Origin: Natrinema versiforme
Lineage (GTDB): Archaea > Halobacteriota > Halobacteria > Halobacteriales > Natrialbaceae
Reading direction: 5' to 3'
Assembly: GCF_005576615.1 (NCBI RefSeq)
Contig: NZ_CP040330.1
Span: forward strand, 3,534,001 to 3,598,000
DNA length: 64,000 bases
The position numbers were made by a program, and so were the translations under genes. Below are positions 3,078-57,715 of this stretch, one piece after another. Within the stretch, counting starts at the first letter, position 1, and each line of letters begins with the position of its first letter. The notes below the pieces were generated by a model. That model worked only from the letters and a program-made list of their open reading frames with translations, was not told the origin of the DNA and ran no database searches.

Positions 3078-3267
3078 TACTGTATAAAAGCAAAGCGGCT
3101 GCTGTTGCCGTTTTGCTCGGCCGTTCCCCCACCACTTAGCGACCGCTAACGGAGGTTGGCGATACTGTCGGTGGAGCTATCCAAGCGCTCCGCTGATTCG
3201 CAGTGCTGTCACTGTAATGTTCACGTTACGGAGCAATTTCGGCGCGTTTTCGGTGACGATGATGGTC

Positions 3268-3576
3268 GGGCCCGACGGCAGCGGTGTGTCCGTCGCAGAC
3301 GATCACTCTGACGCCGTCGCTCGCGATAGTCACGTCGAACTCTCCGAAGACCCGACGCCGCGCCTCGAGGCGAAGTCGGACCACCTGTTGCTGACGACGC
3401 TCCGAGACATGGAGTGAGATCACCCGGAATGTGATCGAGACGGTCGCGACCGACGGCGGTGCGACCGTCGACGATCTCGCCGAGATTCGACGGCACTCTG
3501 CGGCATTGAGTTGACCTGGAAGACCCCCGGCGGTGGGACCGAATCCGGATTCGTCGGCGCGGTCGCCGATCGCTGA
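3268..3576 (+). pseudogene. Decayed DUF7845 gene remnant
   Basis: The translation matches the intact DUF7845 gene at 55188-56807: GPDGSGV-VADDH, EDPTPRLEAKSDHLL and TTLRDM, then after a stop near 3417 the DNA of ETVATDGGATVDDLA, then GIELTWKTPGGGTE and GFVGAVADR ending at 3576. Compared with the intact copy it lacks the 5' part, has a frame break after TTLRDM and has an internal deletion of about 380 nt covering the HTH and coiled region. It cannot make a functional protein. It lies 320 nt after tRNA-Pro and just before the structured block and KAP gene. Confidence 0.85.
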
Positions 3577-3664
3577 AGCCACCCAGATAGTGGCAAGACT
3601 GTCATTCCCGCTCTTTTCTGCAAGTTTGGTTGACTACCTCCGTTTCTTTTGCAACACTGGTTGT

Positions 3665-3846
3665 AGCCAGCACCTCGAGGGCGGGGTCGCCATGGCGATC
3701 GCACCGCGACAGCTGCGGGGTCGTTTCACGCTGCGTGCGAAACGCCCCCTGCCGGGTGTCCCCAAGGGGACAGCGCCAAAAAATTACAGCGCCCCACCCC
3801 GCCTCCGCACGCAGATTTCCAGTTGAAGCACATGAAACAGGGGTTC
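3665..3846 (+). other. Conserved GC-rich structured non-coding block, copy A
   Basis: This non-coding DNA lies between the DUF7845 stop and the KAP gene and is shared with 54917-55110 in inverted orientation. It contains a stem GGGG-T-CGTTTC...GAAACG-CCCC (3717-3748) and a near-palindrome TGTCCCCAAGGGGACA (3757-3772), followed by an A-run and GC-rich tract. Both structures persist in the other copy despite substitutions. It could be a non-coding RNA, a terminator or a recombination/replication site; the sequence alone does not decide. Confidence 0.6.
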
Positions 3847-6073: not shown

Positions 6074-6449
6074 AACCGAACTTTCCGTGAGTCCGACTAT
6101 CTCTCCTCATTGTCATTAATTCAGAACTGGGGTTCAGCGCAACCACCCCTGGGTTGTTCGTCGATAGAATCTAGTTCCTGAATATGCACACAAGGTGCGG
6201 CTCATCGTGTGCATCGCTCGAGTCGGCCCATCGTTTGAACCGCTGTTCGTTTCTGGATGACCGATACGGTTCCCGATTGGAAGCCGGAATGGACCGTTCA
6301 TAAGCCGGAAGCAAGGATATTGGAGGTCGTGTGTACGAATATGCGAATCAGAAGTTCCACTAGCGCCTCGAGCCCACCCACCAAAACCAATGAGCCCTCG
6401 AGCGAGAACCCCGAAAAGGACTATCCACAACGCTAGCAAACGGGAACGC
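6074..6449. other. Intergenic, no gene seen
   Basis: 376 nt after the KAP gene. It starts AT-rich and returns to chromosome-like composition by about 6350, so it probably holds the right edge of the island. I found no convincing coding frame and no copy of the tRNA-Pro 3' end that would mark an attachment site. Confidence 0.5.
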
Positions 6450-6611
6450 ATGATCAGAGACCAAACGCAGCAAGCGAAGAACGAGCGATCCGAGACGCGC
6501 CGGAGGAGACGACTGTTACAACCGGTACTCCTCGCGGGAGTCGCCCTCCTCGTCGCGCTCGTGTATCGGCTCCGTCGACGCGACGAGCCGCGACTCGAGC
6601 CGCCCTTCTGA
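6450..6611 (+). CDS. Hypothetical small basic single-pass membrane protein
   Basis: 53 residues from the ATG at 6450: a polar basic N-terminus with a run of arginines, one hydrophobic helix (LLQPVLLAGVALLVALVY), then a charged tail. This layout is common among short haloarchaeal membrane proteins. An upstream in-frame ATG at 6390 would add 20 basic residues. The basic charge is unusual here and frameshadow translation can mimic it, so the call is weak. Confidence 0.4.
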   Translation: MIRDQTQQAKNERSETRRRRRLLQPVLLAGVALLVALVYRLRRRDEPRLEPPF

Positions 6612-6683
6612 GGGCCCTCGACCGGCCGGAACCTGCCAACCCCACCCGTAGCTTTTCATGGCAGGTTGTGGGACTGGCAGGTA

Positions 6684-8288
6684 ATGAGCGAACGGAGCAG
6701 TGCGGCGGACGGAGCGCCCGCGGTCCGCGTTGCGGCGGGGTCGCGGCGCGAACGGCGGGCACAGCGCGCGCTCGACGAGATTCGGGCGGCGGCGACCGAC
6801 GCTCGCGTCCTCGAGACGGGACCGACCGGGGTCCGGAGTCACGAACCGCTCGTCCTGCTGACTCGCGACGGGCGGACGGCGTTCCATCCGGCACCGGTCG
6901 CGGGACGGCTCGAGTCGCTGGTCGAGACGCTCGAGCGGGGTGGGCTGCCGACCGACGGCGCGGCGGCGGTCGTCGAACACGGATCAGAGCCGGCGTCGCT
7001 TCCGACGCCGGACGACGGGCCGCTCTCCGTGGGCCGGCGGCGCGTCCTCGGCCGGTGTGGCTGGGTCGACCCCGCGGCGGTGCCCGACGAGTCGGCGGCC
7101 GAACTGGCGACCGAGCGGCCGGAGGCGGCGCGAGGTCGCGTCCGCGAAATCGGAATCCGGGGCCGCGGCCGGGGGGACTGGAGCGCCGACGATCCCGTCG
7201 CCGCCGAGTGGGACCTCGCCCGCGAGGCAGCCGAGAGCGGGGACGGCGGCGGAACGACGGCCGACGATGCACAAGCGCCGGTCGTCGTCGTCAACGCCAA
7301 CGACAGCGACGATCGCAACGAGACCGATCGCCTCCTGCTCGAGGCCGCGCCGGGCGAGGTACTCGACGGGGCGCTGGCCGTCGGGGAACTGATCGGGGCC
7401 GACGATGTCGTCGTCTACTGTAACGAGGCCGACGATCAGGCGCGCGAACGCGTCCACGAAGCCGCGCGCAACGTCGCGGAGACGGCCGAGGACCGACTCG
7501 GTCGCGCGGCGCGGCCGGAGGTCGTCGTCGGACCGAACCGGTACATCGCCGGCGAGCCGACGATGGCCCTCGAGGCGATGGAGGGCAACGACCGGCTCGA
7601 GGCCCGCCTCAGCCCGCCCTCGCCGGCCGAGCATGGGCTCTACGGACGGCCGACCGTCGTCCACACGCCGCGAACGGTGGCGCAGGTCCGCCGCGCGATG
7701 CTCCATCCCGAGGAGTTCGACGCCGACGACGCCGATCCCGGCACTCGCCTCCTCACCGCGACCGGCGACGTCGACGCGACGGCGACCGTGGAGCTGCCGA
7801 CCGGCGGGAGTCTCGAGGACGTGCGCGAGGCCGTCGACCTCGAGGGGCGGTTCAAGATGGCCTGCGTCGGCGGCCAGTTCGGCGGGCTTACCCGGTCGCT
7901 CTCGCACTCCCCGTCAGCGCCCGCCCTCGAGGGGGCGGGGCTCGGGACGGAGGGCGTGATCGAACTGCTGAACGAGGAGCGGTGCGTCCTCGCGACGGCG
8001 GGCCGGCGGGCCCGATTCGCGAAGGAGGAAAACTGCGGTCGCTGTGTCACCTGCCGGCAGGGAACGATCCAGCTCACGGAGATGCTTCGAGACGTCTACG
8101 ACGGCGCATACGAGGACGCGAAGATCCGCGAACTGTCCCGCGTGATGGGCGAGACGAGCATCTGCGGCTTCGGTCGCTCGGCGGTCCGCCCGGCCGTCAC
8201 GGGGATGCGCGAGTTCGAGACGGAAGTGACCGCTCACGCCGAGGGGCGCTGTCCCAGCGGCGAGTGCGAGGCCGGGGGGCGACGATGA
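6684..8288 (+). CDS. NuoF-like subunit of cytoplasmic formate dehydrogenase
   Basis: 534 residues from the ATG at 6684. The C-terminal half matches the complex I 51-kDa (NuoF/HoxF) family: GEPTMALEAMEG corresponds to the family GEETALIESLEG region, and GRCVTCRQG with a later SICGFG supplies the four cysteines of the N3-type 4Fe-4S cluster. The glycine-rich FMN/NADH motif is badly eroded: only IGIRGRGRGDW remains where RGRGGAGFPTG is usual. The protein therefore may not reduce NAD. Its last four bases (ATGA) overlap the start of the molybdoenzyme gene, so translation is coupled. It probably passes electrons from the formate dehydrogenase catalytic subunit to an unknown acceptor. Confidence 0.85.
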   Translation: MSERSSAADGAPAVRVAAGSRRERRAQRALDEIRAAATDARVLETGPTGVRSHEPLVLLTRDGRTAFHPAPVAGRLESLVETLERGGLPTDGAAAVVEHGSEPASLPTPDDGPLSVGRRRVLGRCGWVDPAAVPDESAAELATERPEAARGRVREIGIRGRGRGDWSADDPVAAEWDLAREAAESGDGGGTTADDAQAPVVVVNANDSDDRNETDRLLLEAAPGEVLDGALAVGELIGADDVVVYCNEADDQARERVHEAARNVAETAEDRLGRAARPEVVVGPNRYIAGEPTMALEAMEGNDRLEARLSPPSPAEHGLYGRPTVVHTPRTVAQVRRAMLHPEEFDADDADPGTRLLTATGDVDATATVELPTGGSLEDVREAVDLEGRFKMACVGGQFGGLTRSLSHSPSAPALEGAGLGTEGVIELLNEERCVLATAGRRARFAKEENCGRCVTCRQGTIQLTEMLRDVYDGAYEDAKIRELSRVMGETSICGFGRSAVRPAVTGMREFETEVTAHAEGRCPSGECEAGGRR

Positions 8289-50296: not shown

Positions 50297-50309
50297 GGCA
50301 CGATGGGAT
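50297..50309. repeat. Putative attachment site, distal copy
   Basis: 13-bp exact copy of the tRNA-Arg 3' end sequence (57643-57655), next to the integrase 3' end. It marks the outer end of the element. Confidence 0.65.
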
Positions 50310-50355
50310 CGGAGCACCTCGGGATTCGCGACGTTAGTAGTGGCAATCATGGGAA

Positions 50356-51408
50356 TTACAGGTCGGGGAGGTAATCGCTACGCTGTTCAGCCTGTTCGCG
50401 GTCCGACCGGCGGTCATAGTGCCGATCGAGAATATCCTCGCTCGCGTTGAGGCGATCTTTGACGACTCGTCGAGGAACGTCCTCGCGTCGGTAGAAGGTC
50501 ACCCGGCCGCTTCGGAGATCGTGCGGCGACCGCGACGACGGGCACTTGCTCGCGTGATCGAGATGGGTCGCGTCGCAGGTCTCGACATCCCGGTCGTGCG
50601 GGCACGCTTCACCGCGCCAGCAGGGACGGGTAACGCGGTACAGAGTCGTCCGGAACGTGTTGCTGGCCGGACGACCGTACTCGGTCGTGAGAAGCGGCTC
50701 ACGGCCGTGATCGTCGGTCACATCGTGACGGTGGTACTCGATATAGTCCTCGAGGTAGCTGGCCGTCTTTTCGCTAATCCGGTTCCAGCGCGTCCCCTTA
50801 TCCTGATTCTTGAGCGGCGTCCCGGTGTCGGGACGGTGAACGAATTGCACTGCGGGACCAGTCACCCGCGGGTGGCTTCCGTCGAGATCGAGATCACGGA
50901 GATCGAGTCCACGGACGGCACCGGTTCGAGCGCCGGTCCGCCACAGCAGGAGAACGATGATGTGATCGCGAGACGCGGGCTGTGCGTGTTCGAGGTAGTC
51001 GAGGATCTCGATTGCCCGTTCGGGCTTCAGAGTCGTTTCCGATACGTCCTCGCCGTTTTTCATCGTCGGCAACGTGACCTGCTCGTACAATTCCGCGGGG
51101 ACGGCATCGATGTTCGCCGCGAATCGCAGGAATCGACGTAACGACGCGAGTTGACCCTTGAGCGTGACCAGCTTGATCGGACCGCGACCGTCGCCTTTCC
51201 CCTCGCGACGCCACGTCCGGTACTTGTACAAATCCCGCCCGGAGAGGGTTGTTAGATCCGCTATGTCGTTCTCATCGCAGAACTGAATGAACGCCTCGAG
51301 TCGGTATCGCTCGCTCTCACGAGTCGAATCCGCGTGCTCGTCGCGCATCGCATCGTGATACATTTCGACCGCTTCGTGCGGCGGAATGGGCTCGAGGTCG
51401 TCACTCAT
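50356..51408 (-). CDS. Tyrosine recombinase/integrase
   Basis: 350 residues from the ATG at 51408. An N-terminal SAM-like domain (about residues 10-105) is followed by the catalytic domain with R in TGARTGAVRGL (about 160), H-x-x-R in SPHDLRSGR (about 296-299) and the tyrosine in DRHYDRRSDRE (about 331). A cysteine/histidine-rich insertion (CWRGEACPHDRDVETC) lies between them. It would catalyse integration at the tRNA-Arg 3' end. It is transcribed toward the adjacent att copy. An upstream 53-residue gene overlaps its start. Confidence 0.95.
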   Translation of the reverse strand: MSDDLEPIPPHEAVEMYHDAMRDEHADSTRESERYRLEAFIQFCDENDIADLTTLSGRDLYKYRTWRREGKGDGRGPIKLVTLKGQLASLRRFLRFAANIDAVPAELYEQVTLPTMKNGEDVSETTLKPERAIEILDYLEHAQPASRDHIIVLLLWRTGARTGAVRGLDLRDLDLDGSHPRVTGPAVQFVHRPDTGTPLKNQDKGTRWNRISEKTASYLEDYIEYHRHDVTDDHGREPLLTTEYGRPASNTFRTTLYRVTRPCWRGEACPHDRDVETCDATHLDHASKCPSSRSPHDLRSGRVTFYRREDVPRRVVKDRLNASEDILDRHYDRRSDREQAEQRSDYLPDL

Positions 51409-51562
51409 CGCGATCGCCCCACGTCGTGCCACCATCAGCTACGAGCCGCTGATCAGAAACAGTCGATACGTCGGTCGTGTCGGGACTTTCAAGGCCCCGT
51501 AAATTGCCATCATACATGGCTTGCGTACCACAGTTACGCGAGCCGCGCGGACCCGGTGTCAT
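51401..51562 (-). CDS. Small ORF coupled to integrase
   Basis: 53 residues, MTPGPRGSRNCGTQAMYDGN and onward, with an acidic tail. Its stop overlaps the integrase start by 8 nt, which favours coupled translation. The frame continues upstream as CPLGPFRKCG, so a longer form starting at another codon might complete a zinc-knuckle. No family recognised with confidence. Confidence 0.45.
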   Translation of the reverse strand: MTPGPRGSRNCGTQAMYDGNLRGLESPDTTDVSTVSDQRLVADGGTTWGDRDE

Positions 51563-51751: not shown

Positions 51752-52018
51752 ATGCGCAATCCTGGCGATTGGATGCAGATGCCCACCGATGAGAGAATTC
51801 TCGAAGCGTTGCAATCGTCGGGAATGATCCTGTCGCCAGCGGTGATTGCAAAGAATATCGATCGAAGCCGAGAGGAAGTCACTCGCCGACTGACTGTTCT
51901 CGTCGAATATGGTTTTGTCACTCGAGTCGAGCGCGGGTATTATGAGATTGCCGAGCCCGGTGCGCAATATCTCGCCGGAGAACTCGATGCGAGTGAGATT
52001 GATCCGATCGAGGACTAA
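51752..52018 (+). CDS. PhiH1-repressor-like winged-helix protein
   Basis: 88 residues, MRNPGDWMQMPTDERILEAL and onward. The helix-turn-helix (SPAVIAKNIDRSREEVTRRL) and wing (GFVTRVERGYYEI) match the haloarchaeal phage PhiH1 repressor family. It is probably the regulator that keeps the integrative element quiet, acting on the divergent integrase promoter. The gene is opposite in orientation to the integrase, with the candidate operator between them. Confidence 0.85.
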   Translation: MRNPGDWMQMPTDERILEALQSSGMILSPAVIAKNIDRSREEVTRRLTVLVEYGFVTRVERGYYEIAEPGAQYLAGELDASEIDPIED

Positions 52019-54916: not shown

Positions 54917-55877
54917 AATGAACCCTGTTTCGTCTGTTTCAACTGGAGATCTGCGTGCAGGGGTGGGGTGGGGCGCTGTAATTTTTGGCGCAGTCCCCTT
55001 GGGGACACCCGCCAAGGGGGTTTTCGCGCGAAGCGCGAAACGACCCCGCCGGCGTTGCGGTGCGATCGCCGTGCCGACCCCGCCCTCGAGGCGCTGGCTA
55101 CAACCTAGGTTTCATACGCAACGGTGGTATTCAAGCAAACTTGTAGAAAAGAGTGGGAACGGCAGTGTTGCCACTATCTGGGCCGCTTCAGCGATCGGCG
55201 ACCGCGCCGACGAACCCTGTTTCAGTCCCACCGCCGGGAGTCTTCCAGGTCAACTCGATCCCGCGCAGTGCCGTCGGATCGTTGCCTGACTTCGACCACT
55301 TCTCGAGGGCCTCGCTCGCGATCGTCGCGACGTTCTCAAAGCTGTCCGACTTCAGTCGGGAGAGAATCGTATCGATCCGCATCTGCCGAGGATCGCCGTT
55401 TTCGTCGAACTCGAGGTCAGCGCCGTTCTTCGCGAGCCACTCCTGGAAGGGCGACGACTCGGCAACGTGGTCGGCCAGTCCCATAATGTGCTGCATTCGA
55501 TCGGCGTAACTCTCGATCGCGTACTCGGCTGACTCGACGAGCGCTCGAAGCTCCTCGCGATACTTCCGGGCCCGGAACGACACGTCGCCTTGATCGAGAT
55601 CTAGGACTTCACCGAGATCTTCGATCGCCCGGTAGATCGTCGCGGGATGTTTCCCCAGCTGGTCGGCGAGATCGTCGACGGTCGCACCGCCGTCGGTCGC
55701 GACCGTCTCCGTGATATCGCGAGCGGTCTCGCCCATATCTCGCAGCGTCGTCATCAACAGGTGGTCCGACTTCGCCTCGAGGCGCGGCGTCGGGTCCTCG
55801 TAGAGTTCGACGAGATCGTCACGGGCGACCGCGTCGAAGTGATCGTCCGCGACGTACACACCGCTGCCGTCGGGACC
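54917..55877 (-). repeat. Long inverted repeat, copy B (partner 3268-3846)
   Basis: Reverse complement of 3268-3846 with divergence. It includes the non-coding structured block (54917-55110, containing GTCCCCTTGGGGAC at 54993-55006 and GTTTTCGCGCGAAGCGCGAAAC at 55020-55041) and the 3' part of the intact DUF7845 gene. Confidence 0.9.
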
Positions 55878-56807
55878 AAGCGGAATATCTTCCCAGTGGA
55901 GCGCATTCAACAGTGTCTCCTCGATCTGCTCGGTCACCTCGTGGCGGTCAGCCCACGCCCACGCCTCGCCGTCGTTCATCGACTTGTTCACTAAGACCTC
56001 CACTTTCGGATGGTAAGACGGGTGATTTTTCGACACCGCGTCCGGGTCTTTCAACTGGTAGATCTCGAACTTTCGTCCGTAGGTGTGGCCGGGGAGTAGT
56101 TCGCTGGCCGACGTAGGGTTCAGGAACAGCCGGTTCTGGTGATTAACGACCTCCCGGTTGTCGATATGGAGTTCGGCTTTCACGCCCTCGAGGTCGGAGA
56201 GGTAGTGCGCGACTTTCTGCAGTACACCGGCCGACGAGAGCTTTTCCGCCCACTCGCGACGGATTCGAACGTAGCGTTCGTACGCCCACATCCGGCTCGC
56301 CGGGTGTGGTTCCGTCCGGAAATACTCCGAGTGAACGCGCTCGCCAGCGTGATCGAACGCCGCCGCGAAGAATTCCGGCAGCAACTCGAGTCCGCGCTCG
56401 GGCTCGAGGTTACTCAGATGGAATTCAACATCGACGCCGTCGACTTCGCCGACCTGATTCTCCCACGGGAGTTGCAGTCGCTCACCGCTCTCCCAGTGGC
56501 GCATATCCGGGAACCGGGGGGAGATATTGAACGATGCTTTCCGCTCACCGCGCCCGCGACCGACAATATCCCACTCGTAGAGCCGTTCAGCGTTGATTCC
56601 GTCCGACAGTCGCGGAGCGAATCCCGACTTGCTGTACCGGACCTCGAGGTGCCAGGGCTCGCCGTCGATCTCGGTGTCGATCTCGAGGTAGCCCTCGAAG
56701 GGAGGTCCGAGCATGACCGACGAGAGCGCGTCGTACGGACCGCGGCCCCAATCGGGCCACTTCCAGCGCCCTTCGATTTCGTGCGGCGTCGTCTCGACCT
56801 GCGACAC
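55188..56807 (-). CDS. DUF7845 protein of integrative elements
   Basis: 539 residues. The first about 300 residues are a beta-rich domain without known motifs (GYLEIDTEIDGEPWHLEV, WENQVGEVDGVDVEFHL). In the middle, ATVDDLADQLGKHPATIYRAI is a winged-helix segment. The protein ends in a helical region and GIELTWKTPGGGTETG. The family is common on haloarchaeal plasmids and integrated elements; a replication-initiator or regulatory role has been suggested by location but I cannot confirm it. It is last in an operon with DUF7563 and zinc-finger genes. A decayed partial copy is at 3268-3576. Confidence 0.8.
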   Translation of the reverse strand: MSQVETTPHEIEGRWKWPDWGRGPYDALSSVMLGPPFEGYLEIDTEIDGEPWHLEVRYSKSGFAPRLSDGINAERLYEWDIVGRGRGERKASFNISPRFPDMRHWESGERLQLPWENQVGEVDGVDVEFHLSNLEPERGLELLPEFFAAAFDHAGERVHSEYFRTEPHPASRMWAYERYVRIRREWAEKLSSAGVLQKVAHYLSDLEGVKAELHIDNREVVNHQNRLFLNPTSASELLPGHTYGRKFEIYQLKDPDAVSKNHPSYHPKVEVLVNKSMNDGEAWAWADRHEVTEQIEETLLNALHWEDIPLGPDGSGVYVADDHFDAVARDDLVELYEDPTPRLEAKSDHLLMTTLRDMGETARDITETVATDGGATVDDLADQLGKHPATIYRAIEDLGEVLDLDQGDVSFRARKYREELRALVESAEYAIESYADRMQHIMGLADHVAESSPFQEWLAKNGADLEFDENGDPRQMRIDTILSRLKSDSFENVATIASEALEKWSKSGNDPTALRGIELTWKTPGGGTETGFVGAVADR

Positions 56808-57106: not shown

Positions 57107-57237
57107 CGCGACTCACCCTGATTTTCGAGCGCGCGCCGGACCTGCTCGTCAGTAGCTTGCGCCGCGGGATGGGTGATGGGCGTCCGGCTTTCGAGGTCGT
57201 ACAGTTCGCTCGCCCGGACGAACGGCCGATCACACAT
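57103..57237 (-). CDS. Small hypothetical protein in DUF7845 operon
   Basis: 44 residues from the ATG at 57237 (MCDRPFVRASELYDLESRTP), overlapping DUF7563 by 8 nt and the zinc-ribbon gene by 4 nt. No motif recognised. The tight overlaps on both sides support translation. Confidence 0.5.
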   Translation of the reverse strand: MCDRPFVRASELYDLESRTPITHPAAQATDEQVRRALENQGESR

Positions 57238-57469
57238 CGGGCTCACCGCCGTGACGGCCGGGCGACGTTTCCGGGTCCGGAATCGATACGTCGACGCCAG
57301 CACCGGAGCCGCGGCTCAGTCGAGCGTACGTATCGCACTCGCCACAGCGATGGGCTCGATCGTCATCGTCACCGAAGACCCGACGGAACTGATCCGTGAC
57401 GTAGGCTCCGCAGTGCTGGCACGTCGATCGATCAGCCGACGGCCACGGAGCGACCGTCACGCGGACCAC
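57230..57469 (-). CDS. DUF7563-like zinc-finger protein
   Basis: 79 residues. CQHCGAYVTDQFRRVFGDDD and AHRCGECDTY form the CxxC...CxxC zinc finger typical of haloarchaeal DUF7563, found beside DUF7845 on many elements. First gene of the operon. The promoter region upstream holds GTTCAAC/GTTGAAC repeats. Confidence 0.8.
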   Translation of the reverse strand: MVRVTVAPWPSADRSTCQHCGAYVTDQFRRVFGDDDDRAHRCGECDTYARLSRGSGAGVDVSIPDPETSPGRHGGEPDV

Positions 57470-57476
57470 CCCGTGA

Positions 57477-57531
57477 GTTGAACAACAACGGAAAACGCAC
57501 GCGGGCGAGAGGGTGCGTTCAACTGTTGAAC
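57477..57531. promoter_or_regulatory. Operator-like GTTGAAC repeats upstream of DUF7563 operon
   Basis: GTTGAAC (57477-57483) and the palindrome GTTCAACTGTTGAAC (57517-57531) flank the expected promoter of the operon. A dimeric regulator could bind. AACGGAAAAC lies between them. Confidence 0.45.
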
Positions 57532-57540
57532 GGAATCCCC

Positions 57541-57638
57541 ATTCTCAGAATGGCTACCGAATCGGTAATCCGTTGAATCTGAACGGTACCGTTCGTAATA
57601 CGGACTTCTGGGTAGAAGTCCGAAAACGATAGTTTTCG
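57541..57638. repeat. Cluster of five hairpins after tRNA-Arg
   Basis: ATTCTCAGAAT (57541-57551), ACCGAATCGGT (57556-57566), GAACGGTACCGTTC (57581-57594), CGGACTTCT-GGGT-AGAAGTCCG (57601-57622) and CGAAAAC-GATA-GTTTTCG (57621-57638) follow each other within 98 bp, immediately beyond the 3' end of tRNA-Arg. They may be integrase arm sites or a terminator array. Confidence 0.75.
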
Positions 57639-57640
57639 TA

Positions 57641-57715
57641 CGGGCACGATGGGATTTGAACCCACGACCGTCGGATTAGAAGTCCGACGCTCTTTCCGGA
57701 CTGAGCTACGTGCCC
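57641..57715 (-). tRNA. tRNA-Arg (anticodon TCT)
   Basis: Minus strand: acceptor GGGCACG pairs with CGTGCCC; the anticodon stem TCGGA/TCCGA encloses CTTCTAA giving anticodon TCT for AGA codons. T arm GTGGG-TTCAAAT-CCCAT. The discriminator is G at 57641. Its 3' end is the insertion target of the adjacent integrative element, and it remains intact. Confidence 0.95.
57643..57655. repeat. Putative attachment site within tRNA-Arg
   Basis: GGCACGATGGGAT inside the tRNA-Arg 3' end, matching 50297-50309 exactly. Confidence 0.65.

Follow-up and report, generated by a model that had tools for sequence, protein, structure and literature searches.

Inverted repeats in the attachment-site arm of an SNJ2-type element integrated at a haloarchaeal tRNA-Arg gene

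Lambda-type attP sites consist of a short core accompanied by extra arm sites that lie tens to more than 100 bp away. This core-and-arm organization is outlined in a 2021 review, which leaves open whether the 14-nt stem-loop-free att site of SNJ2 is sufficient for recombination (PMC8371274). A coding sequence (CDS) that bridges attP was described in 2021 for pleolipovirus-like proviruses (PMC7911831). According to a further study, the bridging gene of SNJ2 is orf26, which is translated (as a GFP fusion) and needed for replication, nonsense mutations in it abolishing replication, and the SNJ2 operon, whose start has been mapped to a position within int that precedes attP, is co-transcribed across attP (PMC13107129). 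The same study provides the function of the DUF7845 Rep family and places SNJ2-like origins at hairpins near rep, with the SNJ2 ori downstream of rep (PMC13107129).

The element and its excision-dependent reading frame

The window analyzed here is a 64,000-nt stretch of a Natrinema versiforme contig (NZ_CP040330.1) and contains a 7.35 kb element with an SNJ2-type integrase, a DUF7845 Rep, and 13-bp repeats at both ends. The right core repeat, GGCACGATGGGAT (57643–57655), lies inside the 3′ end of tRNA-Arg(TCT) (57641–57715, minus strand), the integration target, and the left copy (50297–50309) lies beside the 3′ end of the integrase gene, giving a spacing of 7346 bp between the two; like cores occur in the relatives G015, G018, G051, and G056. 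The tyrosine integrase (359 aa; 50356–51435, minus strand; Pfam PF00589/PF02899) is 63% identical to the SNJ2 integrase over 99% of the query and falls in the SNJ2 family. Also on the minus strand are the DUF7845 (Rep-Arvir type) replication protein (55188–56807; PF25227, E 3e-105) and a CxxC zinc-finger gene (DUF7563; 57230–57469), which is 85% identical to SNJ2 gp25; viral contigs searched with the CxxC protein yielded no relative. A winged-helix regulator gene is located at 51752–52018, and the remaining recognizable genes encode small proteins. A candidate replication origin, inferred from the SNJ2 ori, occupies 54993–55040 on the minus strand (hairpin 54993–55006 and inverted repeat 55022–55040) and has the SNJ2 layout with a different stem sequence.

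The SNJ2 structural genes gp12–gp18 (spike, membrane protein, NTPase) have no matches in the window element, which is thus not classed as a Betapleolipovirus provirus, yet most of them are present in the same four relatives, which are larger (15.9–22.1 kb), so the window element looks like a reduced derivative. The helper genes orf2 and orf3 were likewise not found beside int in the window element. Directly upstream of int, 51413–51517 retains a 35-residue match (83% identity) to SNJ2 Orf3 (gp03), with no match to Orf2, and the genes for both helpers seem to have been deleted. Many SNJ2-like operons are described without orf2/orf3 (PMC8371274, in part), so these genes are not required for membership in the SNJ2 type.

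Two further loci carry traces of related insertions. Near tRNA-Pro(TGG) (2876–2948) in the window, a second CxxC/rep module is present in fragments (3189–3771; rep pieces 59–93% identical), and beside these fragments the candidate origin hairpin recurs letter for letter (3758–3771); this locus is a decayed related element. In G015, further core-like copies together with int and rep fragments lie to the left of the intact element (approximately 6386–7674 as oriented), which suggests successive insertions at one tRNA-Arg.

When the ends of the element are joined in silico, a 79-codon frame opens on the minus strand, running from an ATG just past the integrase stop through the core and the inverted repeats described below (P1–P6) into the CxxC gene, the first gene beyond it. 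The 5′ portion of this frame lies at 50297–50350 and the 3′ portion, which holds P1–P6, at 57457–57655, where its TGA stop (57459–57457) overlaps a GTG of the CxxC gene. On this in-silico junction the arrangement is that of an attP-bridging CDS, an open frame on the same strand that links the int stop, via attP, to the gene that follows. The frame spans 79–82 codons in the window element and three of the four complete relatives (G056 is frame-shifted) and was found in all seven examined genomes of viruses with such integrases (SNJ2, HHPV4, HRPV9, Harhisp1, Halfgib1, Humcor2, and LSV-48N). The bridging gene is already known, and the window copy is a further example that encodes a putative protein. 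The original prediction had placed the repeats between the element operon and tRNA-Arg, overlooking that the frame of the attP-bridging gene is open across this stretch.

The spacers between CxxC genes and tRNAs provide a broader sample. The CxxC protein was found in 89 of 125 genomes of the family by protein search; 80 CxxC places without a locus were fetched from among the matches listed and, with the addition of 17 loci from named genomes and earlier loci, there were 119 distinct places. All except three could be tied to a tRNA (116/119), in ten groups (Arg-TCT, Arg-TCG, Arg-CCG, Met, Tyr, Ala, Trp, and three Pro), and spacer length is near-constant inside each group. Exclusion of the three unassigned places and of 17 that deviated by more than 12 nt from the family mode in length or exceeded 95% identity left 99 spacers, 55 of them in long-spacer families. 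Alignments used all kept rows in four cases and 11 of the 14 kept rows for Ala. At a few places (e.g., L162, L125, L173, and L141), the tRNA and the CxxC spacer are separated by a partial tRNA copy and intervening sequence, as would result from insertion of another element at that tRNA.

The bridging frame is open in 95 of the 99 filtered spacers, compared to 3 and 7 for the other two frames, and in 166 of 1100 shuffled long spacers. Its dN/dS ranges from 0.48 to 1.01 by tRNA group, often no lower than that of the other frames, and its GC3 is not increased, so amino-acid constraint is weak; strong protein-level selection on the frame was considered and is given no support by dN/dS. The attP-bridging gene accounts for the open, ungapped state of the region but leaves the repeats themselves unexplained.

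Inverted repeats and their positions in related spacers

Within 57516–57638, a scan for arms of at least 6 nt and loops of at most 6 nt returned six inverted repeats, all of them perfect. P1 (57516–57532) has 8-nt arms and a 1-nt loop and is centered ~116 nt from the tRNA 3′ end, at what is termed site B; it is followed by the palindromes P2 (57539–57553; arm 7, loop 1), P3 (57555–57567; arm 6, loop 1), and P4 (57581–57594; arm 7, loop 0). P5 (57601–57622; arm 9, loop 4) is centered ~29 nt from the tRNA 3′ end, at site A, and overlaps by 2 nt with P6 (57621–57638; arm 7, loop 4), which adjoins the attachment core at a gap of two bases from tRNA-Arg(TCT). Since the loops of four of the six repeats are 0–1 nt, 'palindrome' is a more fitting term than 'hairpin'. 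Five perfect inverted repeats had been predicted from 57541 onward, and these are P2–P6 (P2 starts two bases earlier); the five are real, and the count was short by P1, a sixth repeat just outside the predicted range.

The predicted density, far above background, was borne out. At arms of at least 6 nt this is the richest 130-nt stretch in the window, with six repeats compared to four in the next best, and it remains so at arms of at least 7 nt (five compared to three); at arms of at least 5 nt it is not the densest of the 130-nt stretches. Six repeats in the 184-nt spacer were reached in none of 5000 dinucleotide shuffles (mean 0.35), 5000 synonymous randomizations (mean 0.53), or 5000 synonymous permutations (mean 1.52), the latter two null models preserving the encoded protein. 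Single-strand folding of the region is also stronger than that of dinucleotide shuffles (z of −3.5 on the minus strand and −4.6 on the plus strand), and an Rfam search of the window returned two tRNAs as its sole matches, placing P1–P6 in no known RNA family. The cluster is genuine and unusual, and it stands in a genetic setting already described.

The repeats belong to the element and adjoin its attachment core, as had been proposed: the sequence is found again next to related elements or what remains of them, a match extending from the tRNA into the repeat region being present in at least 8 of 99 other genomes (G015, G009, G001, G018, G051, G003, G006, and G045, among the matches listed), and the repeat region is absent from 19 loci with a tRNA-only match (L014–L030, L032, and L033), where the adjoining sequence is unrelated. 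Five of the genomes (G009, G001, G003, G006, and G045) keep the region with no int or rep match in the 17–25 kb examined on the element side and, for this reason, look like remnants. The occurrence of the array at tRNA-Arg in strains without the element, named beforehand as an observation that would count against the proposal, is thus seen only in part, in these five genomes, which appear to keep the leavings of an element.

The six repeats differ in how well they are kept among the 11 Arg-TCT spacers. Pairing holds in 93% of cells for P1, five of whose eight pairs are invariant, compared to 77.9% for P6, 67.7% for P5, 63.6% for P2, and 59.7% for P4; P5 and P6 have no changes on both sides of a pair, and P3 has three such pairs. 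P6 was rejected as a family-wide stem, one of its pairs being broken in 8 of the 11 spacers. Related spacers carry 0–3 repeats compared to six in the window lineage, and a single conserved module of six was rejected, P2, P4, P5, and P6 being often unpaired in relatives. Given this breakage, the prediction of five equivalent sites in one conserved array is not supported; P2, P3, P4, and P6 look lineage-specific. Among the site-A stems of other families, those of Pro-GGG and Pro-TGG have compensatory changes (in one of the two, helix 1 alone is 86.1% paired, with four of six pairs changed on both sides), the Met stem has nearly invariant arms and variable loops, and the Ala stem is paired no more than shuffles. 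The Ala site-B stem was left unscored due to a shifting bulge.

Position is kept where sequence is not. The spacers contain 80 inverted repeats compared to 22.5–23.9 expected, more than threefold over the synonymous-codon null, in counts that are inflated by relatedness within families. In the 55 long spacers, repeats of unrelated sequence peak at about 20–49 nt and 110–119 nt from the tRNA end, the positions that P5 (site A) and P1 (site B) occupy. A repeat is centered 12–52 nt from the tRNA end in 23 of these spacers (4.9 expected) and 100–132 nt from it in 27 (4.4 expected), both ranges having been chosen post hoc; 26 repeats are centered at 110–119 nt compared to 1.9 expected, with related sequences counted separately. 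Site B is common in ArgTCT (8/11), Met (11/14), and Tyr (5/7) and rare in ArgTCG (1/6), ArgCCG (1/3), and Ala (1/14). Its sequences are GTTCAAC/GTTGAAC in Arg-TCT, GAACCAG/CTGGTTC in Met, and TGGAAC/GTTCCA, GTGGAG/CTCCAC, and others in Tyr, with single cases in Arg-TCG and Arg-CCG. In all, nine arm classes (approximately seven once shifted versions are merged by eye) fall inside one 7-nt window at 112–119 nt, compared to six classes, anywhere, in the best of 300 null sets. Site B holds a near-constant distance both to the CxxC gene and to the core, and its loops are mostly 1–3 nt, which favors a DNA rather than an RNA structure. Site A is absent from the Tyr, ArgTCG, and ArgCCG long spacers, most short-spacer groups are too short to hold site B, and the Pro-CGG spacers have neither site. 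Helical phasing of site A was considered and dropped.

Among the viruses, SNJ2 and HHPV4 share a tRNA-Met core and have unrelated palindromes centered 27 and 116 nt (SNJ2) and 21 and 115 nt (HHPV4) from the core end; these are the only two of the seven with both sites. Halfgib1 has one repeat, centered 51 nt from the core end, and Humcor2 has one at 75 nt and one on the other side. No inverted repeat was found in Harhisp1 or LSV-48N, and no core was defined for HRPV9.

Possible functions of the palindromes

P1 and P5 are probably attP-arm sites, embedded in coding sequence, at which a dimeric protein of recombination or regulation binds. P1–P6 lie in the element-side arm of an SNJ2-type attachment site, and excision, by joining the ends, would make the stretch the 3′ portion of a small gene spanning from the integrase to the CxxC/rep genes. 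P5 and P1 would then be double-stranded candidate sites for a dimeric protein, which may be an integrase accessory factor, a directionality factor, or an element regulator, and the sequence preference of this protein would change between lineages. Once bound, the element protein could aid the integrase, set the direction of recombination, or control the operon, its sites being fitted into a frame that would have to stay open for the post-excision operon, while P2–P4 and P6 would be lineage-specific additions or chance. A role in recombination is favored since the sites neighbor the core and reappear with integrases of a single family. The lack of compensatory changes in P5, the rarity of site B outside three long families, and the presence of both sites in two of seven viruses count against binding sites of this kind. 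The original prediction of sites for recombination proteins fits P5 and P1, which stand at recurrent palindrome positions of SNJ2-type elements.

The strongest competing interpretation, though a rather unlikely one, treats P1 as an operator of the CxxC/rep operon, bound by a repressor or by the CxxC protein and keeping rep silent when the element is integrated, with the other repeats incidental. P1 is positioned ~50–65 bp upstream of the CxxC gene, to which the distance of site B is near-constant, the element has a winged-helix regulator gene, and palindromes suit dimeric repressors. The positional data are also compatible with recombination sites, and position alone cannot separate the two. 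No sigma-70-like promoter was found, by a model that is uninformative for an archaeon, the SNJ2 operon start is reported inside int, upstream of attP (PMC13107129, in part), and an operator at P1 leaves site A unaccounted for.

It is improbable that the stretch is coding sequence and nothing else, kept open for translation of the operon after excision and palindromic by chance. The frame open in 95 of 99 spacers would be explained in this way, in keeping with the published attP-bridging genes and with the SNJ2 orf26 nonsense mutations that stop replication (PMC13107129, in part), but not the more than threefold excess of repeats over the synonymous-codon null, their clustering by position, or the near-invariant arms of P1 despite weak amino-acid constraint.

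RNA hairpins that work in the trailer of the tRNA or the leader of the operon are very unlikely, as is a terminator that insulates the tRNA. The region folds stably on both strands, and compensatory changes are found in the site-A stems of Pro(GGG) and Pro(TGG), but the loops of 0–1 nt in four of the six repeats and the wholly different sequences between families are at odds with these readings, and the SNJ2 transcript crosses the region (PMC13107129, in part). No intrinsic terminator (a G+C-rich stem followed by a T-run) is present in 57500–57640 on either strand, and the predicted strong terminator is contradicted both by this and by the co-transcription of the SNJ2 operon across the equivalent stretch in the excised circle (PMC13107129, in part). 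Hardly any credence can be given to P1–P6 as the replication origin since, though hairpins near rep serve as origins in such elements (PMC13107129, in part), P1–P6 lie upstream of the CxxC/rep genes where the SNJ2 ori is downstream of rep, do not form the hairpin with upstream inverted repeat, downstream of rep, of a Rep-Arvir origin, and are ~2.5 kb from the layout that does match SNJ2, at 54993–55040.

Returning to attP-arm sites at P1 and P5, a broader proposal can be put forward tentatively, at slightly less than even chances: SNJ2-type att sites may comprise more than a 13–14 bp core, with up to two palindromic candidate binding sites on one arm, kept in position and replaced in sequence by lineage, inside a gene that is whole only once the element has been excised as a circle. 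As part of this two-palindrome attP, the same DNA would be both a recombination or regulatory scaffold and coding sequence. The positional regularity, which concerns two of the six repeats (P1 and P5), is apparently unreported; the available portions of PMC13107129, PMC8371274, and PMC7911831 make no mention of palindromes at fixed attP positions.

Comparison with described attachment sites

Were the palindromes bound as proposed, the functional attP would extend for ~130 bp to one side of the core, and excision, an excision-only gene, and replication would be linked via one short stretch of DNA. An attP of this extent is directly testable and would help the design of haloarchaeal integration vectors. 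With the published attP-bridging CDS (PMC7911831, in part) and SNJ2 orf26 (PMC13107129, in part), the window copy shares a frame that leads from the integrase stop across attP up to the CxxC gene start and is split by integration; it differs in being packed with palindromes and in belonging to a 7.35-kb element whose target is tRNA-Arg(TCT). With SNJ2 itself, a Betapleolipovirus at tRNA-Met, the element shares its integrase (63% identity), its CxxC protein (85%), the gene order round the circle, and, approximately, the two palindrome distances. Conversely, it is located at another tRNA, its palindromes are unrelated in sequence, and Orf2, most of Orf3, and gp12–gp18 are undetected. Like a lambda-type attP, it would combine a short core with extra sites at distances of tens to more than 100 bp, but here the candidate sites are palindromes that lie inside coding sequence.
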